Below are positions 40,397-60,789 of a DNA stretch of 64,000 nucleotides, piece by piece. The first letter of the stretch is position 1. Every line of letters begins with the position of its first letter. The stretch comes from Streptomyces sp. NBC_01465 (GTDB taxonomy: Bacteria; Actinomycetota; Actinomycetes; Streptomycetales; Streptomycetaceae). A program made the position numbers and the translations under genes. The stretch spans positions 7,068,001-7,132,000 of the forward strand of contig NZ_CP109467.1 in the NCBI RefSeq assembly GCF_036227325.1. Reading direction: 5' to 3'. The notes beneath the pieces are model-generated. The model saw nothing but the letters and a program-made list of their open reading frames with translations. It was not told the origin of the DNA and made no database searches.

Positions 40397-40469
40397 CGGC
40401 CCCGCGACCTCACGTGACCCATACTTGGCCCGCACGAGATGTACGGAAGACCAAGAAGGGCACCACGTC

Positions 40470-43329: not shown

Positions 43330-43354
43330 CATCTCGGATGGCAGAATCGGCCCG

Positions 43355-45087: not shown

Positions 45088-45345
45088 TCAGCGGACCGGG
45101 AGCGGTCCGGTGTCCGACTCGATGACGGTCAGGACGTCCACCACGCGATGGAGCCGCCCCCGCACCCGGGCGGCGTCGGCCGAGGCCACGACGACCTCGG
45201 CGGTGGCCCGGGCGGGAGCGGAGACCGCGTAGGTCAGCTCCTGCACCGGCACCGGGCGCAGAGCGGAGACGATCCGGCCGAGCGCCCCGCCACTGTCGCG
45301 GAGCGTGACCGTGATCCGGCGGGGAGAGTACGAGTCGGGCGTCAT
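45088..45345 (-). CDS. Small stand-alone ACT-domain protein (IlvN-like)
   Basis: An 85-residue protein with the length and pattern of a single ACT domain: ITVTLRDSGGALGRIVSAL (strand, then helix), two middle strands (ELTYAVSAP, TAEVVVAS) and RVRGRLHRVVDVLTVIES. It resembles the regulatory domain of acetolactate synthase small subunits, which bind branched-chain amino acids. AAGGAAG precedes ATG 45345. A terminator-like attenuator and a short open frame lie upstream (45412-45614), consistent with amino-acid-responsive control. No catalytic partner is adjacent. The reading frame stays open to 45564 but the hairpin and ribosome site favour 45345. Confidence 0.75.
   Translation of the reverse strand: MTPDSYSPRRITVTLRDSGGALGRIVSALRPVPVQELTYAVSAPARATAEVVVASADAARVRGRLHRVVDVLTVIESDTGPLPVR
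45092..45109 (+). terminator. Possible terminator of the CUT2-ROK operon
   Basis: CGGACCG (45092-45098) and CGGTCCG (45103-45109) form a perfect 7-bp stem with a 4-base loop, 17 bases after the end of the operon's last gene. It overlaps the 3' end of the convergent ACT-domain gene, so selection on the hairpin is constrained by coding. Confidence 0.4.
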
Positions 45346-45411
45346 GGCGGTGCTTCCTTGTCTTGGTCTGACGGCCGGGTGAGGCCGTTCGCACGGAGGG
45401 GGAAAGCAGAA

Positions 45412-45438
45412 AGACCCCTCGCGGAGGGCGAGAGGTCT
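45412..45438 (-). terminator. Attenuator-type terminator upstream of the ACT-domain gene
   Basis: On the minus strand AGACCTCTCGC (45438-45428), a 5-base loop and GCGAGGGGTCT (45422-45412) form an 11-bp stem with one mismatch, followed by TTCTGCTTTCC. It lies 67 bases before the ACT gene start, inside its leader, and a second potential hairpin (CCCGGAGG/CCTCCCGGG) lies between it and the stop of a short upstream frame. This order (short frame, alternative hairpin, terminator, amino-acid-related gene) is that of transcription attenuation. Confidence 0.7.
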
Positions 45439-45479
45439 GCGTGCGGGCGGTGAGCTGCCCGGGAGGGGTCGCCTCCGGG

Positions 45480-45614
45480 TCATCTCGGTGCCGGCACGCC
45501 GCAGCCGATAATGAGCTGACGCAGCATGGCGCGGATGCTCGCACCGAACCGGCTGTCCCAGCAACGGCGTCTCATGCTGCGGACAGCGGACGCCATGACC
45601 TGACCGTGCGTCAT
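45480..45614 (-). CDS. Possible leader peptide ORF
   Basis: A 44-codon frame (start ATG 45614 after GCAGGTG; a shorter start at ATG 45575 gives MRRRCWDSRFG and 31 codons). It ends LRQLIIGCGVPAPR, with Leu-Ile-Ile and two cysteines and a tryptophan but no run of one regulatory amino acid. Its stop is 42 bases before the attenuator stem. Position rather than sequence suggests a leader. Between 45656 and 45816 I see no gene, only the presumed promoters of the leader and of the peptide operon. Confidence 0.35.
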   Translation of the reverse strand: MTHGQVMASAVRSMRRRCWDSRFGASIRAMLRQLIIGCGVPAPR

Positions 45615-45816: not shown

Positions 45817-47433
45817 ATGAGAGGCACCGCGGCACACACCGGACGCGCCCTGCCCCTGGTGGCGGCCGTCGCGCTTCTGACCGCCGGCTGCGGCGGGGCG
45901 TCGGGGTCCGGCAGCGGCGGCGGGGAGGGCAAGCTCGCAAACGGCAGGACGTTCACCACGGCCGTCGCCTCCGACCCCGGAGCCCTCGACCCGGCGAAGA
46001 CGGTGTTGTCGATCGCCATCGGGATCAACCGCTACCTGTACGACCCGCTCATCCACCTCGACGACCGCGGCGAGCCCGAGGCGGGCCTCGCGCAGAAGTG
46101 GCAGGCGACCGTCAGCACGGCGTCCTTCACCCTGCGCCCCGGCCTCACGTGCTCCGACGGTTCGCCGCTGACCGCGAGCGATGTGGCCGCGAACATCAAC
46201 TACATCGGTGCCCCGGAGAACAAGTCGCCGATGGCAGGCGTGCTCGTGCAGCCGGGCACCAAGGCCCGGGCCGACGACGGGAAGCGGACCGTCACGCTCA
46301 CCAGCGGCGCCCCCGACGCGTTCCTGCTGCGCAACGCCGGTTCCGTACCGATCGCCTGCGGTGCGGGTCTCAAGGACCGCACGGTGCTGGCCAAGGGCGG
46401 CAAGGGGAGCGGCACCGGCATGTTCACCCTGACCGAAGCCGTCGCCGGGGACCACTACACCCTCACCCGGCGCAAGGACTACAGCTGGGGCCCGGGCGCC
46501 TCCACGCAGAAGGCCGAAGGGCTGCCGGACAAGGTGACGATACGGGTGATCCCCAACGAGACCACGGCCGCCAACCTGCTCACCTCCGGAGAGCTGAACG
46601 CCGCTGTGGTCGCCGGCCCCGAACAGAAGCGGCTGGCCGCGCAGAAGCTGTTCCACGCGGATGTGCAGGCACCGCTGGGCGAGCTGTACTTCAACCAGAC
46701 CGCAGGCCGCCCCGGAGCGGACGAGACGGTGCGCCGGGCGCTGGTCCAGGCGCTGAGCCTGCCCGACGTGGGCAAGGTGATCACCAACGGCACCGGAAAG
46801 CCCTCCCAGGGCCTGGTCACCGACGAACCACGGGCCTGCACCGGCGACTCGGTCACCGGCAACCTTCTCCGGCACGACCTCGCCGCCGCCAAGTCCGCAC
46901 TGGACGCGGCAGGTTGGACACCCGGCCCCGGCGGGACACGGACCAAGGACGGCAAGAAGCTCGCACTGAGCCTGATGTACGCCACCCAGAACGGGCCCGC
47001 CGTGGCCGCGGGCGCCGAACTGATCCAGCAGGAGTGGAAGAGCCTGGGGGCCGACGTCACGCTGAAGCCGGCGGACAGCCCCGCGCTGAACAGCACGCTC
47101 TACGGCTCCGGCAACTGGGACGTCTCCATGGCCCCGTTCGGCCTCGGTGCGCCGACCCAGCTGGTCCCGTTCATGTCGGGGCCGACACCGCCGAAGGGCC
47201 TGAACTTCGCCGGCGTCCAGAACCCCGCCTACACCGCGCTCGTGCAGCAGGCCTCGTCCCGGGCAGGCTCAGCCGGCTGCCCGCAGTGGCAGCAGGCCGA
47301 GACGGAGTTGATCAAGCACCTCGATGCGGTGCCGTACTACAACTCCCTCACCCCGGTCTTCGGCGCTTCCGCCCGCTTCAGGGTCAGTCAGAGCGCGATC
47401 GTCCCGTCCTCGATCCGCATGTACGCCAACTAG
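45817..47433 (+). CDS. Peptide ABC transporter substrate-binding lipoprotein (SBP family 5)
   Basis: A 538-residue DppA/OppA-type lipoprotein. The signal ends LLTAGC (Cys25) before a Gly/Ser spacer. Family segments include ASDPGALDPAKTVLS, DPLIHLDDRGEPEAGLAQKW, LTASDVAANINYI, GTGMFTLTEAVAGDHYTLTRRKDYSWG and TADNLL-like TAANLLTSGELNAAVV. It would bind di- or oligopeptides at the cell surface. First gene of a nine-gene row that carries transporter, peptidases and the racemisation enzymes. The next gene follows 13 bases later. Confidence 0.93.
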   Translation: MRGTAAHTGRALPLVAAVALLTAGCGGASGSGSGGGEGKLANGRTFTTAVASDPGALDPAKTVLSIAIGINRYLYDPLIHLDDRGEPEAGLAQKWQATVSTASFTLRPGLTCSDGSPLTASDVAANINYIGAPENKSPMAGVLVQPGTKARADDGKRTVTLTSGAPDAFLLRNAGSVPIACGAGLKDRTVLAKGGKGSGTGMFTLTEAVAGDHYTLTRRKDYSWGPGASTQKAEGLPDKVTIRVIPNETTAANLLTSGELNAAVVAGPEQKRLAAQKLFHADVQAPLGELYFNQTAGRPGADETVRRALVQALSLPDVGKVITNGTGKPSQGLVTDEPRACTGDSVTGNLLRHDLAAAKSALDAAGWTPGPGGTRTKDGKKLALSLMYATQNGPAVAAGAELIQQEWKSLGADVTLKPADSPALNSTLYGSGNWDVSMAPFGLGAPTQLVPFMSGPTPPKGLNFAGVQNPAYTALVQQASSRAGSAGCPQWQQAETELIKHLDAVPYYNSLTPVFGASARFRVSQSAIVPSSIRMYAN

Positions 47434-47446
47434 AAGGGGCGGCTCG

Positions 47447-48451
47447 ATGACGACTGCGACAGCCGTCGCGACGGCGCCCGCGACGCCGGCCTCCACCTGG
47501 CGCGCCAACCGCTGGCTGCGGTTCGGCCTCCGCAGATCGGCCCGGCTCGCCGTGTCGCTGTGGGTCCTGGTCACCGCGGCGTTCCTGATGATCCATCTCG
47601 TTCCCGGTGACCCGGTCCGCGCCGCCCTGGGCATGACCGCCTCGCCCGGCATGGTCGCGGCGCGGCGCGCGGAGCTCGGTCTCGACACCCCGCTGTGGCA
47701 CCAGTATCTGCACTTCCTGGGCGGGCTGTTCACCGGCGAACTGGGCAGCTCCACCATCAGCGGCCAGCCCGTGACGCAGACCATCGGCGACCGGCTGCCC
47801 GCGACCCTGCAACTGGCCGGCCTCGCCTTCGTACTGGCCCTCGTCATCGCGGTCCCCCTCGGCACGGCGATGGCAGCCCTGACCCGGGGCGGGCGCAGGC
47901 GCGGCGCCGAACTCGCCTTCACCTCGGGCAGCGTGCTGCTGGCCGCCGTACCGGAGTTCCTGCTCGCCGTCGTACTCGCCTACGTGTTCGCGGTACGCCT
48001 GGGCTGGTTCCCCGTCGCGGGCAGACAGGGCCCCGGCTCCTACGTCCTGCCGGTGCTCGCCCTGGCCGCAGGCCCCGCATCCGTACTGGCCAGGATCGGC
48101 AGGGTGGAGATGCTGTCGGTCCTCTCCCACGACTACGTACGCACCGCGCGCGCCAAGCGGCTGCCGCCGCGCCGGGTGTACGTACGCCACGCGCTTCCCA
48201 ACGCACTGACCGCCACGCTCACCCTCGGCGGTCTGCTGCTCTCGGCGCTGGTCGCGGGAACCGTGCTGGTGGAGAACGTCTTCGCCTGGCCGGGACTCGG
48301 CTCCACGATCGTGCAGTCCATCCTGCAGAAGGACTACCCGGTGGTGCAGGGCATCGTCCTCGTCTACGGGACGGGCGTGCTCGTGGTGAACCTGCTGGTC
48401 GATGTGGCACTCGCCCTGCTCGACCCGCGCTCCGCGATCAGGGAGGCCTGA
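47447..48451 (+). CDS. Peptide ABC transporter permease (DppB type)
   Basis: A 334-residue membrane protein with six helices. After the first helix comes IHLVPGDPVRAALGM, the conserved DppB/OppB loop, and the EAA-like coupling segment is DYVRTARAKRLPPRRVYVRHALPNAL. C-terminal VFAWPGLGSTIVQSILQKDYPVVQG is also typical. AGAAGGGG precedes ATG 47447; the stop shares a base with the next start (TGATG). Confidence 0.94.
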   Translation: MTTATAVATAPATPASTWRANRWLRFGLRRSARLAVSLWVLVTAAFLMIHLVPGDPVRAALGMTASPGMVAARRAELGLDTPLWHQYLHFLGGLFTGELGSSTISGQPVTQTIGDRLPATLQLAGLAFVLALVIAVPLGTAMAALTRGGRRRGAELAFTSGSVLLAAVPEFLLAVVLAYVFAVRLGWFPVAGRQGPGSYVLPVLALAAGPASVLARIGRVEMLSVLSHDYVRTARAKRLPPRRVYVRHALPNALTATLTLGGLLLSALVAGTVLVENVFAWPGLGSTIVQSILQKDYPVVQGIVLVYGTGVLVVNLLVDVALALLDPRSAIREA

Positions 48452-50379
48452 TGCCTGCCCCCGCCTCTCGTTCCCGCTGGGCAGCGGTCGCCCGTACCCC
48501 CGTGGGTGCCGGCGCCGGGCTGCTGCTCCTCGCGGTCGTCGTCCTGGCCGTCGTCGCCCCGGTCCTGTGGGGGGACCGGGCGTCCGCGGTCGACACGTCA
48601 GCCCTCCAGGAAGGGCCTTCCGGCGCCCACCTGTTGGGCACGGACAACCTGGGCCGCGACATCCTCTTCCGCGTGTTGGTGGCGACCCGGCTGTCGCTGG
48701 TCCTCGCGGTGACCGCGACCCTCATCGGCCTGGTCCTCGGACTGCTCCTGGGCGCGGTGCCCTCGGTCCTGCCGCGTCGTACGGGCAGGCTCGTGACCTC
48801 CGCGGTGAACATCGCCGTGGCCTTCCCCGGTCTGCTGCTCGCCCTGTTCTTCGCCGTCATCTTCGGAGTGGGCGCGACCGGCGCGGTGCTCGCCATCGGC
48901 CTCGCGATGGCCCCGGCCTTCGCCCGGCTCACCCAGACCCTCGGCGCAGCGGTCGCGGGCCAGGACTTCGTGGCCGCCGCCCGGACCGTCGGCGTGGGCC
49001 GGATCCGGATCCTCGTACGCCACATCCTGCCCAATATCGCCGAGCCGCTGGCCGTCAACGCCACCATCGGCGCGGGCAGTTCACTGCTGGCCTTCGCCGG
49101 ACTCTCCTTCCTGGGCCTGGGCATACAGGCACCGGACTACGACTGGGGCCGGCTGCTCGGCGAGGGGCTGGGCCGTATCAGCCTCACCCCCGCCCCCGCG
49201 CTCGCACCGTGCGTCGCGGTCGTCGTCACCGGCTTGGCGTTCAACCTCTTCGGCGAGGCCGCGGCCGCCGCCCTCGGCGTTCGCACCCTGTCGCCGGGCA
49301 CCCCCGGGTGCAGCCCCCTCCCGGCGCCCGCCGCGGACGTCGTCCCGAGGGAGCCTGACGACCAGGGGCAGCCGGTCCTCGCGGTGGAGGACCTGCGGGT
49401 GGCCTTCCTCGGCCCGACAGGCTGGACCACCCCGGTGCGCGGCGTCAGCTTCGCCGTACGGCCGGGCGAAGCCGTCGGTGTGGTGGGGGAGTCCGGTTCG
49501 GGGAAGAGCCTGACCGCGATGGCGGTGTCCCGGCTCGTCGAACCACCGGCCCAAGTCACCGCCGCACGGCTGGAGTTCGCGGGTGTGCCCCTGCTCGAAA
49601 CCGGCGAACGGGAACTGCGTTCCCTGCTCGGCACCTCGCTGGCGATGGTCTTCCAGGACCCGATGTCCTCGTTCAACCCGGTCACGACCGTGGGGCGGCA
49701 GCTCGCCGAGGTCGCCGAACAGCATCAACACCTCAGCCGGCGGGCCGCGTTCGCGCGGGCCGTGGACCGGCTGCGCGCCGTACGCATACCCGCACCGGAG
49801 CGGCGCGCGCGCCAGTACCCGTACGAGTTCAGCGGAGGGATGCGGCAGCGCGCCATGATCGGCATGGGGCTGATGGGCGACCCCCGGCTGATCATCGCGG
49901 ACGAGCCGACCACCGCCCTCGACGTCACCGTGCAGCAGCAGGTGCTGCGCCTGCTCGCCGAGGTGCGCGAACAGCGCTCCACCGCCGTTCTGCTGATCAG
50001 CCATGACATCACGGTCGTCGCCGGCACCTGCGACCGGGTGCTGGTCATGTACGCCGGCCGGATCGTCGAGGAGCTGCCCGCCGCCGACCTGTTCAGCGGC
50101 GCCCAACACCCCTACACGCGGGCGCTGTTGGCCGCCGTACCGGACCTCGACACCGACCGCGACCGGCCCCTGGCGGTGATCCCCGGCCGTCCACCGGAGC
50201 CGGACCAGGTGGAGCGGGGGTGCGCGTTCGCCCCGCGCTGCCCGCGCGCCGACGACCACTGCCGCCGCGAGGATCCCGAGCCCGTCACCCGCTCCGGCGG
50301 GAGCCGGATCGCCTGCTGGCACCCCGTCCGGGGCGGGAGCGAACTCTTCGAGCAGAGCACCACAGGAGGCACCGCATGA
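48451..50379 (+). CDS. Fusion of a DppC-type permease and a DppD-type ATPase
   Basis: A 642-residue protein joining two transporter subunits that are usually separate. Residues 1-285 are a DppC permease (first helix GLLLLAVVVLAVVAPVL; HLLGTDNLGRDILFRVL; coupling segment DFVAAARTVGVGRIRILVRHILPN; SLLAFAGLSFLGLGIQAP). A Pro/Gly linker near 286-310 leads to the ATPase (310-642): Walker A GESGSGKS, FQDPMSSFNPV, signature FSGGMRQRAMIG, Walker B LIIADEP and the C-terminal oligopeptide-transporter motif RCAFAPRCP-like GCAFAPRCPRADDHC with four cysteines. No frameshift; the frame is continuous. Overlaps the next gene by ATGA. Confidence 0.94.
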   Translation: MPAPASRSRWAAVARTPVGAGAGLLLLAVVVLAVVAPVLWGDRASAVDTSALQEGPSGAHLLGTDNLGRDILFRVLVATRLSLVLAVTATLIGLVLGLLLGAVPSVLPRRTGRLVTSAVNIAVAFPGLLLALFFAVIFGVGATGAVLAIGLAMAPAFARLTQTLGAAVAGQDFVAAARTVGVGRIRILVRHILPNIAEPLAVNATIGAGSSLLAFAGLSFLGLGIQAPDYDWGRLLGEGLGRISLTPAPALAPCVAVVVTGLAFNLFGEAAAAALGVRTLSPGTPGCSPLPAPAADVVPREPDDQGQPVLAVEDLRVAFLGPTGWTTPVRGVSFAVRPGEAVGVVGESGSGKSLTAMAVSRLVEPPAQVTAARLEFAGVPLLETGERELRSLLGTSLAMVFQDPMSSFNPVTTVGRQLAEVAEQHQHLSRRAAFARAVDRLRAVRIPAPERRARQYPYEFSGGMRQRAMIGMGLMGDPRLIIADEPTTALDVTVQQQVLRLLAEVREQRSTAVLLISHDITVVAGTCDRVLVMYAGRIVEELPAADLFSGAQHPYTRALLAAVPDLDTDRDRPLAVIPGRPPEPDQVERGCAFAPRCPRADDHCRREDPEPVTRSGGSRIACWHPVRGGSELFEQSTTGGTA

Positions 50380-51140
50380 GCGAGCTGGTTTTCGAGGGGG
50401 TGAGCGTACGGTACGGCTCCCGGCGGCACGCCCTGACCGCGGTGGACGGCGTGGATCTGACGGTGCCGTCCGGCCAAGTGGTGGGCCTGGTGGGGGAGTC
50501 GGGCTCGGGCAAGTCGACGCTGGCCCGCGCCGCCGTCGGCCTGGCGCCGCTCGCCGCGGGCCGCATCCTGCTCGACGGGGCCGATGTGCGGCGGCTGTCC
50601 GGGCGCCGTCGCCCGCTGCAGATGGTCTTCCAGGACCCGTACTCCTCGCTCGACCCGCGGATGAGCGTCGGCGACTCCATCGCCGAAGCGATGCCGCGCG
50701 AAGGGGGCCGCGGCGGCGGCGCGGCCCGCCGTACCCAGGTGGCCCGGCTGCTCGAACAGGTCAGCCTCGATCCGGGCCGGGCCCCGATGCTCCCCGGGCA
50801 GCTCTCCGGCGGCCAGCGCCAGCGCGTGGCGCTGGCCCGGGCCCTGGCGGGCCGGCCGCAGGTCGTCATCGCCGACGAGATCACCTCGGCCCTCGACGTC
50901 TCCGTCCAGGGCTCCGTGCTCAACCTGGTGCGCGGTGTGCAGCGGGAGTTGAAGCTGACCATGCTGTTCATCTCGCACAACCTGGCCGTGGTGCGCTACC
51001 TCAGCGACCACATCGCCGTGATGCATCTCGGCAGGATCGTCGAGGCGGGCCCCACCGACGAAGTCCTCGCCGACCCGCAGCACCCCTACACCCGCGAGCT
51101 GCTCGCCGCCGTACCCCGCCGTACGGAAGGTGCTTTGTGA
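50376..51140 (+). CDS. Peptide ABC transporter ATP-binding protein (DppF type)
   Basis: A 254-residue second ATPase of the importer. Walker A GESGSGKST, FQDPYSSLDPRMSVG, signature LSGGQRQRVALARAL, Walker B VVIADEITSALDVSVQ, H-loop ISHN. It lacks the long C-terminal cysteine extension seen in some DppF proteins, ending soon after HPYTRELLAAVPRR. Note the Walker B glutamate is followed by ITSALD rather than PTSALD. Start ATG 50376 overlaps the upstream stop, and the stop overlaps the peptidase start (GTGA). Confidence 0.94.
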   Translation: MSELVFEGVSVRYGSRRHALTAVDGVDLTVPSGQVVGLVGESGSGKSTLARAAVGLAPLAAGRILLDGADVRRLSGRRRPLQMVFQDPYSSLDPRMSVGDSIAEAMPREGGRGGGAARRTQVARLLEQVSLDPGRAPMLPGQLSGGQRQRVALARALAGRPQVVIADEITSALDVSVQGSVLNLVRGVQRELKLTMLFISHNLAVVRYLSDHIAVMHLGRIVEAGPTDEVLADPQHPYTRELLAAVPRRTEGAL

Positions 51141-54100
51141 AACTCGTACCACCGAACCTGTCCACCCCGTCCACAAGGAGCCGGCACACCGTGACGCGAC
51201 GCCTGGGTTTCGACGATCTCTACTCCATCGCGCTGCCGGAGCAGCCGGCGCTGTCCCCGGACGGCACACGCATCGTCTACGTACTGCACACCGCCGACCG
51301 CGAACACGACCGTGAGGACCGGGCGTTGTGGACCGTGGCGGCCGGCGGCGGCAGCGCACGCAGGCTCACCCGCGGCACCGCCGACACCGCGCCGGCGTGG
51401 TCGCCCGACGGCCGGTGGATCGCGTTCCTGCGCGGCGGCGAAGGCCCGCAGCAGCTGTGGCTCCTGCCCTCCGAGGGGGGCGAACCCGAGCAGGTCACCA
51501 GTCTTCCCGGGGGTGCGGGGGCGCCGGTGTGGAGCCCGGACGGCACCGCGCTCGCCTTCCCGGCCCCTGTCGACAGCCGCCACGATGCGGGGAGTTCCGT
51601 AGAGGTGCCCGCCCCCGTGGTGGCGGACCGGATCGGCTACAAGGCCGACGGCCGGGGCCCGTTCGGCACCGTCCGCAGCCATCTGCACGTCGTGGACCTC
51701 GACAGCCGCGAGACCAGGCAGGTCACCCACGGCGACTGGCATGCGGGAGCGCCGGCCTGGTCGCCGGACGGGCGCAGCCTCGCCTTCTGCGCGGCACGTG
51801 GCGCCGACGCCGATCTGACGCTGCGCTCCGAGGCGTACGTCGTCGACCGCCTCACCCCCGGCGCCGAACCGCTGCGCGTCGGCACCGCAGAAGGCGCCGC
51901 GCACGCCGTCAACTGGACCTCCGACGGCGAGGCGTTGCTCGTCGTAGGCCGTACGGACACCGCGCTGGGCCACGCGAGCGTGCTGCGCGTCCCGCTGGAC
52001 GGCGGCGCACCGGCCGACCTCACGGCCGGACTCGACCGCAATGTGATGCCCGGCGGTCCCGGCTACCCGGGCGCACTGCCCCGGCCTGCTCCCGACGGTC
52101 GGTCGGTGCTGTTCTGCCTGCGCGACCACGGTTGCACGCACCTGTACGCGACGAGCGCCGACGGCGGCGCACCCCGCGTGCTCGTCGGCGGTGCGGGCCG
52201 TGTCGTCTCCGGACTGTCCACCGCAGGTGACACCGCCGTGGTCGTCCTGGCGACCGCTGACTCGTACGGCGAGGTCGTGGCCGTCGAGCTCTCCACCGGC
52301 CGCGAACGGGTGCTCACCCGGCACGGGGCCAGCCTGGGGGAGACGGCGCTGTTCGCGCCGCAGGAACGGGAGTTCACCGTCTCGGACGGCACCGTCGTGC
52401 ACGGATGGCTGCTGCGCGACCCGGCCGCCGCAGGCCCCGGTCCGCTGCTGCTCGACATCCACGGCGGCCCGCACAACGCCTGGAACGGCGCGGCGGATCC
52501 CTTCCACCCGTACCACCAGGTGCTGGTCGCCCGCGGCTGGTCGGTGCTGCTGCTCAACCCCCGCGGCAGCGACGGCTACGGGGAGGAGTTCTTCACCGCG
52601 GCAATCGGCGCCTGGGGCACGGCCGACGCACCCGACCTCCTCGAACCGCTGGACACCCTGGTCGCCGAGCAGATAGCCGACCCGCGGCGCCTCGCCGTCG
52701 CCGGCTACAGCTACGGCGGCTACATGACCTGCTACCTGACCGGCCGAGACGACCGCTTCGCCGCCGCCGTCGCCGGAGGCGTAGTCAGCGACCTCACCAG
52801 CATGTGCGGTACGAGCGACGAGGCCCACTCGCTGGCGGTGGCCGAACTCGGCGGCCCGCCGTGGGAGAACCGCGAGCGCTACGCCGAACTCTCCCCGATC
52901 TCCCGGGTGGAGCACGTCCACACCCCGACCCTCGTCGTGCACGGAGCAGTCGACGAGCGCTGCCCGGCCGGACAGGCCGAGCAGTGGTTCACCGCGCTCA
53001 GGACGCGCGGCGTCCCCACCCGACTCGTGCTCTACCCGGGCGGTTCTCACCTCTTCCTGCTCGAAGGACCGCCCTCCCACCGCGTCGATCTCGGCCGCCG
53101 CATCGTCGACTGGGTGGAACGCCACGCCGGCGAGCGCGGACGTCCCGGCCGCCCTCCGCTGGACACCGCGCACTGGCAGCGACGGCTCGACGAGCTCGCG
53201 GCCCGCCACCGTGTGCCGGGCGCCGTCCTGGGCATCTCGCGCGGCGGCGAACTCGCCCTGGCGGCAAGCGGTCTGCTCAACAAGGACACCGGGGTGCGGA
53301 CCACCGAGGACTCGCTCTTCCAGATCGGGTCGATCACCAAGGTGTGGACCACGACCCTGATCATGCAACTGGCCGACGAGGGGAAACTCGACCTCGACGC
53401 CCCCGTCACCGACGTCCTGCCGGAGCTGCGGCTCTCCGATCCGTACGCGGCGAAGCAGCTGACCGTACGGCATCTGCTCACCCACACCAGCGGCGTCGAC
53501 GGCGACATCTTCACCGACACCGGCCGGGGCGACGACTGCCTGGAGAGCTACGTCGGCGAACTCCGCTCGGCGGCGCAGATCCATCCGCTGGGCGAGACGT
53601 TCTCGTACTGCAACTCCGGGTTCGTGCTGGCCGGCCGGATCGTCGAGAAGCTCACCGGCACGACCTGGGACAACGCCCTCAAGGAGCGCCTCTGCGCACC
53701 CCTGGGGCTCACGCACACCGTCACCCTGCCCGAGGAGGCGCTCCGTTTCCGTACGGCGACGGGCCACGACGCCCAGGGCGATGAGGACCCGCGGCCGGTT
53801 CCGGTGTGGGGCCTGCCCCGCTCGTGCGGACCGGCCGGACTGATCACCGCGACGGCCGCCGACGTGCTCGCCTTCGCCCGCATGCACCTGTCGGGCGGCA
53901 CCACCGCCGACGGCACCCGCGTCCTGACGCAACAGGCCGCACACGCGATGACCGAGCAGCAGGTCGCCCTGCCGGACGTGCACACGCTCGGGGACTCCTG
54001 GGGGCTGGGCTGGATCCGCTTCGGCGCCGACGGCCACCGGCTCGTCGGACACGACGGCAACACCATCGGCCAGTCGGCGTTCCTGCGCCTGCTGCCCGAC

Positions 54101-54520
54101 CAGGATCTCGCCGTCACGCTCCTCACCAACGGAGGGGGCGCCCGCGACCTCTACCTGGACCTGTTCGGCGAGCTCTTCGCCGAACTGGCCGGAGTCGACC
54201 TGCCGCAGCCGCTGGAGCCGCCCGCCGAGCCGGTGACCGTCGACATCGGCCGCCACCTCGGCACGTACGAACGGGCCGGTGCGCGCCTGGAGGTCCTTGA
54301 GGGCGCCGACGGACCGCGCCTGCGCCACACGGTGACGGGACCGCTCGCCGCCATGACGCCCGATCCGGTGCAGGAGGCCGACCTGGTGCCCGTGAAGGAC
54401 GACCTCTTCGTCGTACGGCTGCCGGGCAGCGTGGCCTGGACCCCCGTGACGTTCTACGCACTCCCGACGGGCGAGCCGTATCTGCACTTCGGCGTGCGCG
54501 CGACCCCGAAGGTGTCCTGA
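51137..54520 (+). CDS. Fusion of an S9 prolyl-oligopeptidase-type peptidase and an S12/beta-lactamase-fold serine hydrolase
   Basis: A 1127-residue two-enzyme fusion without a signal peptide, so cytoplasmic. Residues 20-390 form a WD/PD40-like beta-propeller (repeated PAWSPDGR motifs); 400-650 are the S9 catalytic domain with Ser525 in GYSYGGYMT, an acid in HGAVDERCP and the histidine in GGSHLF. Residues 660-1010 are a class-C beta-lactamase/D-aminopeptidase-like domain with Ser732-x-x-Lys735 (SITK), Tyr824-x-Asn (YCN) and His972-x-Gly (HDG); a beta-rich tail follows. Both active sites are intact. S12 relatives cleave D-residue peptides, which fits the racemase genes downstream. GTG 51137 is coupled to the ATPase stop; GTG 51191 with AAGGAG is an equally good start. 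Confidence 0.92.
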   Translation: MKLVPPNLSTPSTRSRHTVTRRLGFDDLYSIALPEQPALSPDGTRIVYVLHTADREHDREDRALWTVAAGGGSARRLTRGTADTAPAWSPDGRWIAFLRGGEGPQQLWLLPSEGGEPEQVTSLPGGAGAPVWSPDGTALAFPAPVDSRHDAGSSVEVPAPVVADRIGYKADGRGPFGTVRSHLHVVDLDSRETRQVTHGDWHAGAPAWSPDGRSLAFCAARGADADLTLRSEAYVVDRLTPGAEPLRVGTAEGAAHAVNWTSDGEALLVVGRTDTALGHASVLRVPLDGGAPADLTAGLDRNVMPGGPGYPGALPRPAPDGRSVLFCLRDHGCTHLYATSADGGAPRVLVGGAGRVVSGLSTAGDTAVVVLATADSYGEVVAVELSTGRERVLTRHGASLGETALFAPQEREFTVSDGTVVHGWLLRDPAAAGPGPLLLDIHGGPHNAWNGAADPFHPYHQVLVARGWSVLLLNPRGSDGYGEEFFTAAIGAWGTADAPDLLEPLDTLVAEQIADPRRLAVAGYSYGGYMTCYLTGRDDRFAAAVAGGVVSDLTSMCGTSDEAHSLAVAELGGPPWENRERYAELSPISRVEHVHTPTLVVHGAVDERCPAGQAEQWFTALRTRGVPTRLVLYPGGSHLFLLEGPPSHRVDLGRRIVDWVERHAGERGRPGRPPLDTAHWQRRLDELAARHRVPGAVLGISRGGELALAASGLLNKDTGVRTTEDSLFQIGSITKVWTTTLIMQLADEGKLDLDAPVTDVLPELRLSDPYAAKQLTVRHLLTHTSGVDGDIFTDTGRGDDCLESYVGELRSAAQIHPLGETFSYCNSGFVLAGRIVEKLTGTTWDNALKERLCAPLGLTHTVTLPEEALRFRTATGHDAQGDEDPRPVPVWGLPRSCGPAGLITATAADVLAFARMHLSGGTTADGTRVLTQQAAHAMTEQQVALPDVHTLGDSWGLGWIRFGADGHRLVGHDGNTIGQSAFLRLLPDQDLAVTLLTNGGGARDLYLDLFGELFAELAGVDLPQPLEPPAEPVTVDIGRHLGTYERAGARLEVLEGADGPRLRHTVTGPLAAMTPDPVQEADLVPVKDDLFVVRLPGSVAWTPVTFYALPTGEPYLHFGVRATPKVS

Positions 54521-54521
54521 C

Positions 54522-55700
54522 ATGGAGCAGATGTACGGCATGCAGACCTCCCGAAGTCCCCTCGGTATCGCCCTGTTCGAGGACGCACTGCCCGCCATGA
54601 CCGACGACATCGGGCGCCTGGTGCGCACCGAGTCGCCCTCGTCCGACCTGGCCGCCGTGGCCCGCAGTGCGGAGGTGGTCGCCGAGGTCGCCGCACCGTA
54701 TCTGGGCACCGGTCCCGAGGTGCTCACCGCGGACGGCCGCACCCATCTGCGCTGGCGGCTGGGCAGCGGACCCCGGCGGGTCCTGCTGCTCGGCCACCAC
54801 GACACCGTGTGGCCCCTCGGGTCCCTGGCCGCGCAGCCCTTCACCGTCCGCGACGGTGTGCTGCGGGGGCCCGGCTGCTTCGACATGAAGGCCGGACTCG
54901 TCATGGCCTTCCACGCCCTGGCCGCGCTGGCCGCCGTAGGAACGGTCGACGGGGTGACGCTCCTGGTGACCGGGGACGAGGAGCTCGGCTCGCCGTCGTC
55001 GCGGGAGCTGATCGAGTCCGAGGCGGCCGGGTGCGCGGCGGCGCTGGTCCTGGAGGCGTCGGCCGACGGCGGCGCGCTGAAGACGGAACGCAAAGGAGTC
55101 TCCCTGTACGAGATACGGGTCGACGGCCGGGCCGCCCACGCGGGCCTGGAGCCGGAGCGCGGAGTCAACGCCGCCGTCGAGACCGCCCACCAGATCCTCG
55201 CGGTCGCCGCACTGTCCGCCCCCGGCACCGGCACCACGGTCACCCCGACCCTCCTGAGTGCGGGGACCACCTCCAACACCGTTCCCGCGCACGGTCTGTT
55301 CCACGCCGACGTCCGCGTGCGCGACACCGCCGAACAGGACCGCGTGGACGCCGCTCTCCACGGGCTGAGGCCCGTACTGGACGGCGCGCAGGTCACCGTG
55401 ACCGGCGGACCGAACCGCCCGCCCCTGCCCCGTACGGCATCGGACGCGCTCTACCGCCGTGCCCGGCGACTCGCCGGAGAGCTGGGCATCGGAGAGCTCG
55501 CGTCCGCCGCCGTGGGCGGAGCGTCGGACGGCAACTTCACCGCGGGCATCGGCGTCCCGACCCTGGACGGGCTCGGCGCGGTGGGCGGCGGTGCGCACGC
55601 CGCCGACGAACATGTGCTCGTCGCCGAACTCCCGCGCCGTACAGCCCTGTTGGCGGCACTCGTCGACTCCCTTCTCGCTGCCGGCGGGAGCACCCGATGA
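54522..55700 (+). CDS. M20-family deacylase/peptidase (CPG2-like; probable N-succinyl-L-amino acid desuccinylase)
   Basis: A 392-residue zinc hydrolase. Metal and catalytic residues visible: His92-x-Asp94 in GHHDTVWP, bridging Asp121 in GCFDMKAG, Glu153-Glu154 in TGDEELGS, and GRAAHAGLEPERGVNA for the dimerisation domain; the last ligand histidine is in GGGAHAADEHV. The HHDTVWP/ERGVNA pattern is that of carboxypeptidase G2-like M20 enzymes, which hydrolyse N-acyl-L-amino acids or peptides. With the GNAT and racemase genes directly after it, the simplest role is L-specific removal of the succinyl group. The exact start among ATG 54522, 54531 and 54540 is unclear. Confidence 0.9.
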   Translation: MEQMYGMQTSRSPLGIALFEDALPAMTDDIGRLVRTESPSSDLAAVARSAEVVAEVAAPYLGTGPEVLTADGRTHLRWRLGSGPRRVLLLGHHDTVWPLGSLAAQPFTVRDGVLRGPGCFDMKAGLVMAFHALAALAAVGTVDGVTLLVTGDEELGSPSSRELIESEAAGCAAALVLEASADGGALKTERKGVSLYEIRVDGRAAHAGLEPERGVNAAVETAHQILAVAALSAPGTGTTVTPTLLSAGTTSNTVPAHGLFHADVRVRDTAEQDRVDAALHGLRPVLDGAQVTVTGGPNRPPLPRTASDALYRRARRLAGELGIGELASAAVGGASDGNFTAGIGVPTLDGLGAVGGGAHAADEHVLVAELPRRTALLAALVDSLLAAGGSTR

Positions 55701-56608
55701 CGGACAGCCCCGCCGCCCCTCCCTCCGCCCCCGAAGCCGTCGACGCGATCGTGGCGGACGCCCTGACCGCGGCCGATGCCGCAGCGCGGGCGGCCGGCTG
55801 CCGGGTGGGGCCGATCAGCGCCCTGGCGGATCTGGAGGCGACCTGCCGGCTCTTCGAAGGCATCTGGAAACCGGCCGGCGAGAACGGGCTGGCCACGACC
55901 GAACTGCTGCGTGCCATGGACAAGGCCGGCAGCTACGTCGCGGCCGCCTTCGACGGAGAGAGCGGCGACGAACTCGTCGGCGCCTGCATCGGCTTCTTCG
56001 GCCCGCCGCCCCACGGCGCGCTGCACAGCCACATCGCCGGAGTGGCGGCCGGGCTGCGCGGCCGCAACGTCGGGTTCGCCCTCAAGGTGCACCAGCGCTC
56101 GTGGGCGCTGCAGCGCGGCGCCGCCCAGGTGTCCTGGACCTTCGACCCGCTGGTGCGGCGCAACGCCTACTTCAACATCGGCAAGCTCGCCGGCCGGGCC
56201 GCGCAGTACCTGCCCAACTTCTACGGCCCCATGAACGACGGCATCAACGGCGCCGACGACACCGACCGCCTCCTGGTCGAGTGGCAGCTGGACGCCCCCG
56301 AAGTCGCCGCCGCCTGCCACGGCCGCCCCCGCACCACCGACGCGACCGCCGAACGGGCGGGGGGCGCCGCCGTGACCCTGTCCGCCACCGCGGACGGCCG
56401 GCCGCACGCCCACCACGTCACCGGGGAGCGGTGCCTGGTCGCCGTACCCGAGGACATCGAGCGACTGCGCCGCACCGACCCCCGGTCCGCTGCGGCCTGG
56501 CGCGGCGCCGTGCGCGACGTCCTCGGCGAGCTCCTCGCCGACGGGTGGCAGGTGACGGGCTTCGACCGGGCCGGCTGGTACCTCCTCGTACGAAAGGACA
56601 CACCGTGA
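55697..56608 (+). CDS. COG3375-type GNAT acyltransferase (probable D-amino acid N-succinyltransferase)
   Basis: A 303-residue GNAT protein. After an N-terminal helix rich in alanine come CRVGPISALADLEATCRLFEGIW, the beta-strand region SYVAAAF and VGACIGFFG, an acyl-CoA loop GLRGRNVGFALKVHQRSWAL (about 117-136), WTFDPLVRRNAYFNIGKL and YLPNFYGPMNDGINGADDTDR. The last two blocks mark the COG3375 group that I remember beside o-succinylbenzoate synthase/N-succinylamino acid racemase genes. In Geobacillus such a protein is a succinyl-CoA:D-amino acid succinyltransferase. It overlaps both neighbours (ATGA and GTGA). Confidence 0.88.
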   Translation: MTDSPAAPPSAPEAVDAIVADALTAADAAARAAGCRVGPISALADLEATCRLFEGIWKPAGENGLATTELLRAMDKAGSYVAAAFDGESGDELVGACIGFFGPPPHGALHSHIAGVAAGLRGRNVGFALKVHQRSWALQRGAAQVSWTFDPLVRRNAYFNIGKLAGRAAQYLPNFYGPMNDGINGADDTDRLLVEWQLDAPEVAAACHGRPRTTDATAERAGGAAVTLSATADGRPHAHHVTGERCLVAVPEDIERLRRTDPRSAAAWRGAVRDVLGELLADGWQVTGFDRAGWYLLVRKDTP

Positions 56609-57711
56609 AGCTCACCGGAGTCGAACTCCGCCGCGTCCGGCTGCCGTTGGTGGCACCCTTCCGCACCTCGTTCGGTACGCAGACCGAGCGCACGGCGCTG
56701 CTGCTGCGCGCCGTGGGCGCCGACGCGGAGGGCTGGGGCGAGTGCGTGGCCATGGCCGATCCGCTCTACTCCTCGGAGTACGAGGGCGCCTGCGCCGACG
56801 TGCTGCGCCGCTTCCTGATCCCCGCGCTGGGCGGCCTCCGCCGGCTGGACGCGGCAGCCGTCGCCCCTGCGCTCGCTCCGTTCAAGGGCCACCGGATGGC
56901 GAAGGCCGCACTGGAGATGGCCGTGCTCGACGCCGAACTGCGCACCCGGGGCGAGCCGTTGGCGCGCGCACTGGGCGCCGTCCACGACCGGGTGCCCTGC
57001 GGGGTGTCCGTGGGCATCATGGACTCGGTGCCCGAACTGCTCGACGCGGTGGCCGGCTACCTCGACGAGGGATACCTCCGCATCAAGCTGAAGATCGAGC
57101 CCGGCTGGGACATCGAACCGGTCCGTGCCGTCCGCGAGAGATTCGGCGACGAACTGCTGCTCCAGGTCGACGCCAACACCGCGTACACCCTCGCGGACAC
57201 CCGGCATCTGGCCCGACTCGACGCGTTCGGACTGCTGTTGATCGAGCAGCCGCTGGAGGAGGAGGACCTCCTCGGCCACGCGCAGCTCGCCAGGAGCCTG
57301 GCCACACCGGTGTGCCTGGACGAGTCGATCACCTCGGCCCGGTCCGCGGCGGCCGCGATCACCCTGGGCGCGTGCAGCATCGTGAACATCAAGCCCGGCC
57401 GGGTCGGCGGCTATCTGGAGGCCCGCCGTATCCACGACGTGTGCGCCGCGCACGGCGTGCCCGTCTGGTGCGGCGGCATGCTGGAGACCGGCCTCGGCCG
57501 CGCCGCGAACGTCGCCCTGGCCGCGCTGCCCGGCTTCACCCTGCCCGGCGACACCTCCGCATCGGACCGCTTCTACCGCACCGACATCACCGACCCGTTC
57601 GTCCTGGCCGACGGCCACCTGCCTGTACCCGACAGCCCCGGCCTCGGCGTCGTACCGCTCCCGGAGGTCCTGGAGGAGGTGACCGTCGGCACCGAGTGGA
57701 TCCCACTGTGA
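56605..57711 (+). CDS. Enolase-superfamily N-succinylamino acid racemase / o-succinylbenzoate synthase
   Basis: A 368-residue enzyme of the muconate lactonising enzyme subgroup. It opens LRRVRLPLVAPFRTSFGTQTER and GWGECVAMADPLYSSEY, typical of NSAR/OSBS. Catalytic lysines are Lys161 and Lys163 in the KLK motif and Lys263 in NIKPGRVGGY; magnesium ligands are Asp189, Glu214 and Asp239. Length and these positions coincide with those I recall for the Amycolatopsis NSAR (368 residues, Lys163/Lys263). It would equilibrate N-succinyl-D- and L-amino acids. Menaquinone genes are absent here, so a pure OSBS role is less likely. GTG 56605 overlaps the GNAT stop. Confidence 0.93.
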   Translation: MKLTGVELRRVRLPLVAPFRTSFGTQTERTALLLRAVGADAEGWGECVAMADPLYSSEYEGACADVLRRFLIPALGGLRRLDAAAVAPALAPFKGHRMAKAALEMAVLDAELRTRGEPLARALGAVHDRVPCGVSVGIMDSVPELLDAVAGYLDEGYLRIKLKIEPGWDIEPVRAVRERFGDELLLQVDANTAYTLADTRHLARLDAFGLLLIEQPLEEEDLLGHAQLARSLATPVCLDESITSARSAAAAITLGACSIVNIKPGRVGGYLEARRIHDVCAAHGVPVWCGGMLETGLGRAANVALAALPGFTLPGDTSASDRFYRTDITDPFVLADGHLPVPDSPGLGVVPLPEVLEEVTVGTEWIPL

Positions 57712-57784
57712 CGGGGCCTTGTGGCCGCCGACAGAAACACCGCACAATCCCGTCGACACCGACGAAGCGGGGGTACGGGGCACC

Positions 57785-59419
57785 GTGAACACGCAGCCGC
57801 GGGCCAGTCTCAGACGGGTCCTGGAAGATCTCGGCACGACCCTGCTCGACCTCGTGTGCGGAGACCCGGACATGGCGGACGAGATCGGCGGGGTGGTCAT
57901 CCACGACGCCCTGGACGAGCCGGTGCTGCCGCGGCAGGCGCTGGTGCTCGGCATCGGTGTCCACGGGGCGGCCGAGACCGCACGGCTCCTCACCGCCCTC
58001 GGTGACGCCGGGGCGGCGGCGCTGGTGGTCCGTTCCCCCGTACCGGCCGACGCCGTACTCACCCGGGCGGCGGAGAGTTCCGGCGTCGCACTGCTCGCAC
58101 TGACCCGCGGCGCCTCCTGGGCCCAACTCGCCGCACTCTTGCGCTCGTTGCTCGCGGACGGCGACATCGGGGAGGCGGGCCCGCAGACACTCGGCGGCAC
58201 CCCGTCCGGCGATCTGTTCGCGCTGGCCAACGCGGTCGCCGCGCTGCTGGACGCCCCCGTCACCATCGAGGACCGCAGCTCCCGCGTCCTGGCCTTCTCC
58301 GGCCGCCAGGACGAAGCCGACGCGTCCCGCGTGGAGACCGTCCTCGGACGGCAGGTCCCCGAACGCTTCACCCGCTACCTCGAGGACAGCGGGATCTTCC
58401 GCTCCCTGTACCGCAGCGACCAGCCGGTCCACGTCGCCCCGCCCGAGACCGACGGATTCCACATCCCGCGCACCGCCATCGCCGTACGCGCGGGGGACGA
58501 AGTCCTCGGCTCCATCTGGGCCGTCGTCCGCACCCCGCTCACCCCGCAGCGCTGCCGTGCGCTGCACGACGCGGCGAAGCTCGTCGCCCTGCACCTGCTG
58601 CGCCTGCGGGCGGGCGCCGACGTCGAGCGCAGACTCCGCGCCGACCTGGTCTCCACCGCCCTGGAAGGCGGAGCGGGCGCCGCCGAGGCGCTGGGCCGGC
58701 TCGGCCTGACCGACTCCGCGGGCGTCGTCCTCGCCCTGGCCGTGCCCGACCCGCCCGAACTCACCGGCTCCGCCGACCTGCACGCCCAGCACACCGCCGA
58801 ACGCCAGCGGCTCGCCGACGCCTTCGCCATGCACCTCTCCGCCATCCACGCGCGCGCCGCCACGGCGCTCATCGGCGACGTCGCCTACGGCATCCTCCCC
58901 GTACCGCTCCGGCAGACGGACGCGGAGGAGCGGGCGGCCCGTACCGGCACCGACTTCCTCACGCGCGTCGGCGACCGGCTGTCCCCGCTGATCGGCATCG
59001 GCCCGGCGGCCAGGGACGGCAGCGCCCTGGCCCGCTCCCGCGAAGGAGCAGACCGGGCACTGCGCGTCCTGCGGACCAACGGAGGCCCCCGCCGGCTCGC
59101 CCGCATCACGGACGTCCACGTCGAAGCGCTCCTGCTGGACCTCGCCGACCTCACCGCCGAGCGCGGCGATCCGCCGACCGGGCCGCTGGCCCGGCTGCTC
59201 GCGTACGACCGGCAGCACGACTCCCAGCTGGTCGACACGGTCTGCGCCTGGCTCGACGCCTTCGGCGACGTACCGGCGTCGGCCGTGGCGATGTACGTCC
59301 ACCAGAACACCTTCAGGTACCGGCTGCGCCGCGCCGTCGAGGTGGCGCAGGCCGACCTCACCGACTCGGACGTCCGCTTCGCGCTGATGCTGCAACTGCG
59401 GCTGCTGCGCCGCGCCTGA
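57785..59419 (+). CDS. PucR/CdaR-family transcriptional regulator
   Basis: A 544-residue regulator. The N-terminal PucR-type domain (residues 1-140, LEDLGTTLLDLVCGDPDM, ALVVRSPVP, SSGVALLALTRGASWAQL) is followed by a GAF-like middle (LFALANAVAALLDAPVTIEDRSSRVLAFS), a GGDEF-derived segment and the C-terminal helix-turn-helix SAVAMYVHQNTFRYRLRRAVEV. PucR-like activators govern use of purines, amino acids and similar nitrogen sources. It is 73 bases downstream of the racemase on the same strand and probably controls the peptide operon. GTG 57785 follows GGGGTACGGGG. Confidence 0.9.
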   Translation: MNTQPRASLRRVLEDLGTTLLDLVCGDPDMADEIGGVVIHDALDEPVLPRQALVLGIGVHGAAETARLLTALGDAGAAALVVRSPVPADAVLTRAAESSGVALLALTRGASWAQLAALLRSLLADGDIGEAGPQTLGGTPSGDLFALANAVAALLDAPVTIEDRSSRVLAFSGRQDEADASRVETVLGRQVPERFTRYLEDSGIFRSLYRSDQPVHVAPPETDGFHIPRTAIAVRAGDEVLGSIWAVVRTPLTPQRCRALHDAAKLVALHLLRLRAGADVERRLRADLVSTALEGGAGAAEALGRLGLTDSAGVVLALAVPDPPELTGSADLHAQHTAERQRLADAFAMHLSAIHARAATALIGDVAYGILPVPLRQTDAEERAARTGTDFLTRVGDRLSPLIGIGPAARDGSALARSREGADRALRVLRTNGGPRRLARITDVHVEALLLDLADLTAERGDPPTGPLARLLAYDRQHDSQLVDTVCAWLDAFGDVPASAVAMYVHQNTFRYRLRRAVEVAQADLTDSDVRFALMLQLRLLRRA

Positions 59420-59425
59420 GCGGGG

Positions 59426-60586
59426 TCACTTCGGGCAGTACTCCGCGTCGATGACCGCCTGGCTGTTGCCCGCCCAGTCGCCGTTGAAGTTGAACGACAG
59501 CGCGTGCCTGCCGTCCGCGGTGGTCACGGCCTGGGAGGCCGAGCCCTGGATGTTGCCGCCGTGTCCCCACACCGAGACGCCGCAGCTCAGATCGAACTTC
59601 ATCAGCCCCAGCCCGTAGGCCGTGATCAGACCGGCCCCGCTGACCGGCACGGTCGTTTTCATCTCGGCGAGCTGGTGTGCGGGGAGCAGTTTCCCGCCCA
59701 GCAGCGCCGAGTAGAAGCGGTTCAGATCGGCGGAGGTGGAGATCATCGCGCCTGCGGAGCCCGCGGCGGACGGATTGAGTTCGGTGACGTCGTAGGTCGG
59801 CCCCGTGGGCTGCGGCGTCAGGGAGAGCTTGGAGTACGCACGGGAACTCGGCACCGGCATCGACGCGTCGGTGCGGGGGACACTGGTGGCGAACAGGCCG
59901 AGCGGCTGGACGATGCGCCGCTTGATCTCGTCCTCGTACGGGCGGCCCGTGACCTTCTCGATGATCATTCCGGCCAGGACGTAGTTGGTGTTCGAGTAGC
60001 TCCAGGCCGTCCCCGGGGCGAACAGCGGTTTGTACCGCATCGCGATGTCCACCAACTGCCGTGGTGTGTAGGTGTCGTAGCGGTGCTCCAGGAACTCCTC
60101 GGTGAACCCCCGCTCCAGGAACTCCGGATCGGCGGTGTAGCTGGGAATCCCGCTGGTGTGGCGGAGCAGTTGCCGTACGGTGACCAGGCTGCCGTCGTTG
60201 CCGTTGCCCCGGACCACACCGGGCAGCCATCTCTCGACCTTGCTGTCGAGGTCGATCCTGCCCTCCGCCTCCAGCTGGAGCAGCACGGTCGCGACGAACG
60301 TCTTGGTCATGCTGCCGATCCGGTAGCGGTCGACGGATGTGCGCGGCGCTCCCGTCCTGAGGTTCCCGACGCCCGACGTCCCCGTCCAGACCGCGTACGC
60401 GTCGTTGACCTGCCCGGTGACGCCGGGCACTCCGTCCTTGACCGCGGTGTCCATGGCCTGTTGGGTCTGTGCGTGCCCCAGCCCTTGGCCCTGGCCCGCC
60501 GCCGCGGGTGAGGTGAAGCAGGCGGCGGTCAATGCCGCCGCTGCCACCAGGCCCACCGCGCCGGCGCGTGCTCTGCGCACTGTCAT
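59426..60586 (-). CDS. Secreted S12 serine hydrolase (D-alanyl-D-alanine carboxypeptidase/alkaline D-peptidase type)
   Basis: A 386-residue exported enzyme. The signal peptide is about residues 1-31 (TVRRARAGAVGLVAAAALTA, cleavage near SPAAA). Catalytic motifs are SMTK in RIGSMTKTFVAT, YSN in WSYSNTNYVLAG and HGG in VWGHGGNIQGS, all intact. Streptomyces R61-like DD-peptidases and D-peptidases have this layout, acting on D-Ala-D-Ala ends of peptidoglycan stems. AAGGGCAG precedes ATG 60586. It converges on the regulator of the D-amino acid operon, with 6 bases between the two, so it could release substrate peptides for it outside the cell. Confidence 0.92.
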   Translation of the reverse strand: MTVRRARAGAVGLVAAAALTAACFTSPAAAGQGQGLGHAQTQQAMDTAVKDGVPGVTGQVNDAYAVWTGTSGVGNLRTGAPRTSVDRYRIGSMTKTFVATVLLQLEAEGRIDLDSKVERWLPGVVRGNGNDGSLVTVRQLLRHTSGIPSYTADPEFLERGFTEEFLEHRYDTYTPRQLVDIAMRYKPLFAPGTAWSYSNTNYVLAGMIIEKVTGRPYEDEIKRRIVQPLGLFATSVPRTDASMPVPSSRAYSKLSLTPQPTGPTYDVTELNPSAAGSAGAMISTSADLNRFYSALLGGKLLPAHQLAEMKTTVPVSGAGLITAYGLGLMKFDLSCGVSVWGHGGNIQGSASQAVTTADGRHALSFNFNGDWAGNSQAVIDAEYCPK

Positions 60587-60789
60587 CTGCTGCCCTTGCC
60601 CGTCTCTCGATCCGGTGATGTCCGGAAGGTAGGGGCAGCCGCGGGACCGCCGCTTCGTCGCGGGCGACAACGCGGAGCGGGACGCTCATCGGGGGCGACG
60701 AACCTCATGCGAAGCTACGGATGCCGCAGGCGGTCTTCTGTGCGATCCGGGCCCGGGGCGCCCGCCGTACACGTGGCTAGCATCCGACG

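Follow-up and report, generated by a model that had tools for sequence, protein, structure and literature searches.

In the genome of Streptomyces sp. NBC_01465 (9.14 Mb, one contig), we analysed a stretch of 64,000 nucleotides (contig NZ_CP109467.1, positions 7,068,001 to 7,132,000), here called the window, in which nine plus-strand genes follow one another in series from position 45817 to 59419. They encode an ATP-binding cassette (ABC) importer of the peptide type, an S9-S12 peptidase, an M20 metallohydrolase, a GNAT acyltransferase, a racemase of the N-succinylamino acid racemase (NSAR)/o-succinylbenzoate synthase (OSBS) family and a PucR-type regulator. From these families and their order, we consider it probable that the row is an operon for scavenging peptides that contain D-residues. 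All nine genes lie on a single strand, exactly where an earlier note on this DNA had put them. The gaps between them, read from the binding protein gene to the PucR gene, are 13, -1, -4, -4, 1, -4, -4 and 73 bp; seven of the eight junctions overlap or measure at most 13 bp. All nine genes have a GC content at third codon positions of 0.885-0.931 and no internal stops, and two are domain fusions, one of permease and ATPase and one of S9 and S12.

In the route that we propose, a lipoprotein-dependent ABC importer would take up short peptides, which the S9-S12 protein would trim in the cytosol, liberating D-amino acids, with the S12 half tolerant of, or specific for, D-residues. The GNAT would transfer a succinyl group from succinyl-CoA onto the free D-amino acid, the NSAR would racemise the N-succinyl-amino acid, and the M20 enzyme would strip succinyl from the L form only, by which the balance would be drawn irreversibly to the L-amino acid. 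The PucR protein would regulate the row. In this scheme, the activities and stereospecificities are all inferred, as are the succinyl nature of the acyl group, the import of peptides as natural substrate and the cytosolic location of the enzymes; its weakest links are the M20 step, the presumed preference of S12 for D-residues and the precise substrate. Three of the enzyme kinds, GNAT, NSAR and M20, stand side by side in the window as they do in Geobacillus kaustophilus, where a GNAT succinyltransferase, an NSAR and an L-desuccinylase of the M20 family reportedly convert D- to L-amino acids irreversibly, as Sakai et al. are said to have found in 2006. In contrast to the Geobacillus pathway, the window adds, in the same row, the peptide importer, the S9-S12 protein and a regulator of the PucR type.

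The racemase aligns with the Amycolatopsis NSAR/OSBS of known structure (1SJA) over residues 1-366 of 368, scoring 617 bits. Residues K161, K163, D189, E214, D239, K263 and R266 are all present and are kept in at least 97% of 121 sequences. We take K163 and K263 to be the catalytic lysine pair, D189, E214 and D239 to be the acidic metal ligands, and R266 to be the residue linked to NSAR activity; 7S8W has Gln at the equivalent place. The protein also passes the o-succinylbenzoate synthase equivalog TIGR01928 (303.6 bits, cut-off 200.65), and plasmid-borne relatives bear the automatic label 'menC', both of which speak for an OSBS that serves menaquinone synthesis. Such a function is hardly conceivable here, and the reading was dropped: a search for MenD, the sole men gene searched, found no protein over the cut-off in this genome (best 56.5 bits versus 244.2), and the genome contains two MqnA/MqnD-type genes, which together make an OSBS role in menaquinone synthesis unlikely. 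Moreover, no GNAT is annotated next to the enolase of L170, a relative that does lie inside a men operon. A dipeptide epimerase that works directly on peptides would suit the peptide context of the row, and L-Ala-D/L-Glu epimerases belong to the same superfamily (1jpm, 124.6 bits). This is very improbable, and was likewise dropped, because the dipeptide epimerase models score far below their cut-offs (61.7 of 500 and 47.7 of 343 bits), against 617 bits to the NSAR, and because it would leave the constant GNAT partner without a role. The NSAR-type racemase predicted in the earlier note, by its sequence identity neither a menaquinone enzyme nor a dipeptide epimerase, is supported by the 1SJA score, the missed epimerase models and the MenD result.

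The GNAT matches no Pfam or NCBIfam model and has no clear sequence match in the PDB (best E 0.24). Its AlphaFold model, built from 50 sequences, has a mean predicted local distance difference test score (pLDDT) of 94.1, and Foldseek returned 382 PDB matches to it at E<=0.001, in which the listed GNAT structures cover 163-213 alignment columns of the 303 residues. The predicted model supports the assignment of a GNAT fold to this protein. In a sample of 150 Streptomyces genomes, the window's own included, the GNAT was detected in 41 genomes and the racemase (at least 66% identity) in the same 41. The sample was assigned to Streptomyces because some of its racemases agree completely, over their last 300 residues, with those of named records, S. 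aurantiacus (L042 and L115) and S. naganishii (L045 and L096). In 46 of the 47 GNAT places, the gene lies at most 1.3 kb upstream of the racemase on the same strand; the one unpaired GNAT is a fragment on contig C297 of a draft genome with 1300 contigs (G028), the other fragment of which starts contig C117 beside a racemase. Five racemase places with 41-50% identity, in five genomes, have no GNAT at the same threshold, and in two of them (L075, L076) there is a weaker neighbouring GNAT match (30%). A separate group of Streptomyces GNAT-racemase pairs (L059-L074, 66-68% identity) has no M20 or peptide importer match and carries a PucR homologue on the opposite strand in 15 of 16 cases. A 263-amino acid gene follows downstream in the three of these loci that were checked (L059, L066, L074), resembling SepM in L059 with a score under the cut-off.

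For a wider survey, 120 loci were mapped, comprising the best 80 of at least 588 confirmed in a scan of named genomes and 40 of the 50 racemase places outside the window's genome in the genus sample; removal of three duplicates (L096, L115, L138) left 117 loci for counting. A gene was scored as present if tblastn gave a hit at E<=1e-6, whichever the strand, between 13.5 kb upstream and 11 kb downstream; paralogues therefore enter the presence counts. Per-genome searches scored the best candidates (4 for S9-S12, 13 for racemase and 15 for GNAT), and weaker copies may escape them. The GNAT adjoins the racemase in 108 of the 117 loci, and the pair, far from being consistently lacking in related operons, is thus a regular part of them. 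The M20-GNAT-racemase row is found in 64 loci, a complete ABC set in 33, S9 in 33, S12 in 56 and a PucR homologue in 80. GNAT, M20 row, ABC set, S9, S12 and PucR occur all together in 20, and with a 25% identity floor the complete unit is found in 19 of the 120 loci.

The exact order of the window, with the same 11 domains on one strand, recurs in 17 of the 117 loci from six genera: Streptomyces (7, five of them from the genus sample), Nocardioides (4), Microbacterium (3), Kibdelosporangium, Actinomadura and Arthrobacter (1 each). PucR is the same-strand gene after the racemase in these 17 loci; L047, L049 and L105 have about 0.8 kb more space between the two genes. As a control, 20 random regions of 19.6 kb (19 from genus genomes, 1 from the window's genome) were searched with the same queries and E-value, yielding M20, S9 and GNAT in none, S12 in one, a complete ABC set in one and an ABC ATPase alone in four. 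Since 17 of the 117 loci share the domain order and random regions are nearly empty, the arrangement is not a matter of chance, and the same gene set that the earlier note had proposed to look for in other genomes is present there. In the 92 loci with long flanks, Fisher tests, which ignore kinship and are descriptive, associate ABC with M20 (p=6e-4), S12 with M20 (p=3e-7), S9 with M20 (p=9e-7) and S9 with ABC (p=3e-8); PucR with M20 is not significant (p=0.15). On the racemase tree, on which truncated loci were labelled as 'rest', the complete unit is scattered, with 11 label changes, at least six of them forced by starred branches, versus 18.8 when labels were shuffled. This fits repeated gain, loss or transfer. 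Some copies of the row lie on records filed as plasmids.

In the 64 loci with an M20-GNAT-racemase row, the slot directly before M20 is filled by S12 or S9-S12 in 26 cases, by an M19 dipeptidase in 14, by an amidohydrolase of the D-aminoacylase type in 7 and by S9 in 1, and the remaining 16 slots hold another row gene, something else or no recognised gene. Pfam confirmed the family for each of the five M19 genes, out of the 14, that were checked; two of the seven D-aminoacylase-type genes are Amidohydro_3 and Amidohydro_1 in Pfam. The query for the latter type came from Kutzneria (L103) and reaches 658 bits against NF006560 (cut-off 340), and neither M19 nor the D-aminoacylase type had a match in the 20 random regions. 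L-D dipeptides are substrates of M19 enzymes, and D-aminoacylases release D-amino acids, so that their presence in the slot supports a release of D-residues here. The occurrence of different hydrolases in this exchangeable slot is not described in the open-access literature searched and appears to be new. The different hydrolases can also share one cluster: a Streptomyces plasmid carries the series amidohydrolase-M20-GNAT-racemase-helix-turn-helix (HTH) regulator, after which come S12-type serine hydrolases, the importer and a protein of the S9-S12 kind. Jiangella has a gene resembling class A beta-lactamases (PF13354) between S9-S12 and M20 (L146:7172-7999), and two genes for serine hydrolases of about this size are present in L191 (10077-10979 and 1008-1901).

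The same slot bears on a different reading, in which the importer and hydrolases salvage N-acyl- or modified amino acids instead of D-peptides; the racemase and M20, in relatives together with the D-aminoacylase, would resolve N-acyl-D/L mixtures, and the GNAT would re-acylate stray D-amino acids. The seven D-aminoacylase-type slots are consistent with this, as is the binding protein, which reaches no NCBIfam cut-off, so that its ligand is not fixed by family. In addition, a review that covers NSAR/L-succinylase biocatalysis with the G. kaustophilus enzymes describes NSARs as taking many N-acyl groups (PMC7431475). We nevertheless regard salvage of N-acyl-amino acids as rather unlikely, because the peptidases (S12, S9-S12, S9 and M19) are commoner in the slot (41 of 64) and because such a GNAT needs a free amine, yet is the most constant partner of the racemase.

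A further possibility is a general operon for L-peptide nutrition, with a GNAT-racemase pair that would do no more than detoxify D-amino acids met occasionally. S9 peptidases usually cut ordinary peptides, and this genome gives 18 matches to family-5 binding proteins, three of them in one frame, which leaves about 15 such genes besides the one in the row and points to broad peptide use. The distribution of the S9 and S12 parts makes this reading distinctly unlikely. The 33 ABC-complete loci contain S12 in 30 cases and S9 in 23; S9 without S12 never occurs, and S12 without S9 occurs seven times. Furthermore, the S9 part is found in 8 of the 150 Streptomyces genomes, all eight of which also have the racemase (in G028 on a different contig). 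Relatives of S12 alone occur in 11 further genomes, seven of them lacking the racemase. S9 and S12 share a single frame in some loci and are adjoining genes in others. In the window protein, the S9 catalytic residues S525/D606/H638 are present (kept in at least 97% of 29 S9 sequences), as are the S12 motifs SxxK (732/735), YxN (824/826) and HxG (972/974), kept in at least 97% of 44 sequences. The S12 set also occurs in beta-lactamases and esterases and is thus not specific to D-peptidases. No signal peptide was recognised by eye, and GTG at 51191 is an alternative start. A structure model of the S9-S12 protein (pLDDT 62.4, ten-sequence alignment) was set aside. In some Streptomyces, the S9 gene appears decayed next to a retained S12 gene, as in L047, with 37% covered, and in G075 (C5:191541-193490), with one in-frame stop.

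The best PDB matches of the M20 protein are carboxypeptidase G2, and H92, D94, D121, E153, E154, E178 and H359 are present and kept in at least 97% of 71 sequences. Bacillaceae plasmid clusters served as a stand-in for Geobacillus in the sequence comparison: the GNATs of two of them align with the window GNAT (26-28% identity) and the racemases of three with the window racemase (42-46% identity). By analogy with the Geobacillus pathway, the M20 protein may act as the L-desuccinylase.

Related rows also exist outside Actinomycetota. Three Deinococcus plasmids (L160, L167, L168) carry, as in the window, a racemase-GNAT pair, two ABC permeases, a binding protein and S12 hydrolases, accompanied by an annotated D-aminoacylase or amidohydrolase and, in L160, also by an M19 dipeptidase. 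The amidohydrolases of L160 and L167 reach 176-177 of the 340 bits required by NF006560 and are thus below its cut-off. BLASTP matches to the window proteins were obtained with S12 from L160 and L167 and with the L160 GNAT; the L160 binding protein has no match to that of the window. Different from the window, L167 and L168 have a MurR/RpiR regulator, and no M20 is annotated in the stretches of the three plasmids inspected. A Lysinibacillus row consists of oligopeptide:H+ symporter-M20-GNAT-racemase, and in Cytobacillus M20 and racemase adjoin, without an annotated GNAT next to them. The coupling of the stereo-inverting enzymes to peptide importers and D-associated hydrolases claimed in the earlier note thus recurs, in Deinococcus as well, and the survey across phyla identifies GNAT and racemase as the most constant part and uptake as the variable one. 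Two records may be misfiled Bacillaceae DNA: L164 (under Stenotrophomonas), with the same gene layout as L163, a Lysinibacillus plasmid, and L170 (under Pseudomonas fluorescens), with a sporulation protein and the men operon.

Several observations weigh against an operon dedicated to D-residue peptides. The S12 domain scores 43.7 bits with a curated D-aminopeptidase model, far below its cut-off of 443; of the D-peptidase-like domain in the earlier note, an S12 domain with SxxK, YxN and HxG motifs stands, and the D-aminopeptidase identity is missed. The S12 relatives outside racemase-bearing genomes, in seven of the 150, have about 50% identity. At E<=1e-3, BLASTP finds no match between the window M20 and those of the three Bacillaceae clusters, and the window protein is carboxypeptidase G2-like, which leaves its L-desuccinylase role as an analogy; an M20 enzyme is there, as the earlier note had it, and its metal site is intact. 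The D-aminoacylase type and S9-S12 are both present in two Amycolatopsis clusters (L092, L097), so that the exchange in the slot is not a strict exclusion. In a sample that includes truncated contigs, 53 of the 117 loci have no M20-GNAT-racemase row and 84 no complete ABC set. Tree-aware independent-pair tests gave no significance (median p 0.5-1, four results listed), because informative pairs were too few. In D. radiodurans, the genes found together are limited to racemase, a binding protein and GNAT, and in some relatives the transporter is of another type than for peptides: Priestia has, besides M20, GNAT and racemase, frames that by eye resemble an amino acid permease, Sulfitobacter has racemase and GNAT with an ABC importer for amino acids, and Microbispora L129, a locus without a GNAT match, has a GntP permease. 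Thus, of the complete path from D-containing peptides to L-amino acids that the earlier note had put forward, the gene families, their order and the GNAT-racemase pairing are borne out; the M20 step stands by analogy, and S12 may or may not have the D-specificity assigned to it.

The features of the row are compiled in Table 1. The binding protein has a lipobox-like LTAGC at its N-terminus, as judged by eye. Just upstream of the row, at about 40439-44491 of the window, translations resemble a sugar-type ABC importer and a ROK-like protein, and a small minus-strand frame (45088-45564), divergent from the operon start, resembles an ACT domain. On the other side, a secreted-looking S12 protein of the DD-carboxypeptidase-like type is encoded on the minus strand (59426-60670), convergent with the PucR gene; its closest match among the mapped loci is in L123 (56% identity). 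It was rejected as an operon member, because in the nearest relatives (L039, L040) it has no counterpart after PucR, and the matches there, with about 2 kb past PucR covered, are the operon's own S12 only.

Table 1. Genes of the proposed D-residue peptide scavenging row, in window coordinates, with the matches on which each assignment is based.
Gene product	Position	Strand	Basis
Family-5 (oligopeptide/dipeptide type) substrate-binding protein	45817..47433	+	PF00496, 173.5 bits
Peptide ABC permease, DppB/OppB type	47447..48451	+	PF00528 + PF19300
Fused peptide ABC permease (DppC/OppC type)-ATPase (DppD/OppD type), single frame	48451..50379	+	PF00528 93-269, PF00005 330-488, PF08352 539-604
Second peptide ABC ATPase, DppF/OppF type	50376..51140	+	PF00005 + PF08352
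S9 (propeller + prolyl-oligopeptidase fold)-S12 (beta-lactamase/DD-peptidase fold) fusion, 1127 aa	51137..54520	+	PF07676, PF00326, PF00144
M20 metallohydrolase, carboxypeptidase-G2-like; proposed N-succinyl-L-amino acid desuccinylase	54522..55700	+	PF01546, PF07687
GNAT acyltransferase, 303 aa; proposed D-amino acid N-succinyltransferase	55697..56608	+	AlphaFold model, GNAT folds in PDB
NSAR/OSBS-family racemase (enolase superfamily, MR/MLE); proposed N-succinylamino acid racemase	56605..57711	+	1SJA match, TIGR01928
PucR-type regulator, C-terminal HTH	57785..59419	+	PF13556

The importer parts correspond to those of Dpp/Opp importer and peptidase operons; to our knowledge, the usual peptide utilisation operons of this kind lack a stereo-inverting enzyme set. 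In the open-access literature (titles and abstract openings, with subscription papers outside this scope), we found no description of an operon that combines the D-to-L core with peptide import and peptidases, in agreement with the earlier note. The D-to-L core as such is known; its coupling to import and hydrolases, the conservation of gene order across genera and the exchangeable slot appear to be undescribed.

The natural role of the promiscuous NSAR/OSBS enzymes has been debated, and the Amycolatopsis enzyme can now be viewed in its gene context. The racemase of A. orientalis DSM 43388 is 75% identical to the window racemase and nearly identical to 1SJA (802 bits), and its locus (L091) has the row D-aminoacylase-type-M20-GNAT-racemase-PucR; the slot before M20 is thus occupied by a D-aminoacylase-type gene, in contrast to the S9-S12 gene of the window. 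Such a row around a close equivalent of the crystallised enzyme suggests a natural role for the latter.

It is possible, and we put it forward tentatively, that GNAT and NSAR form the constant core of a stereo-salvage system, modular and spread by horizontal transfer, in Actinomycetota and Deinococcota, into which importers and D-releasing enzymes (S9-S12, M19 or D-aminoacylase) are plugged. If this is true, the host would feed on D-rich peptides from cell walls or from the non-ribosomal antibiotics of competitors, and the long-studied Amycolatopsis NSAR would gain a natural role. The conserved neighbourhood offers a concrete and testable role for NSAR/OSBS enzymes, which would call for correction of 'menC' annotations such as those of plasmid-borne relatives, and supplies ready-made gene sets for the degradation of D-residue peptides, among which there may be peptide antibiotics and wall fragments left intact by ordinary peptidases.

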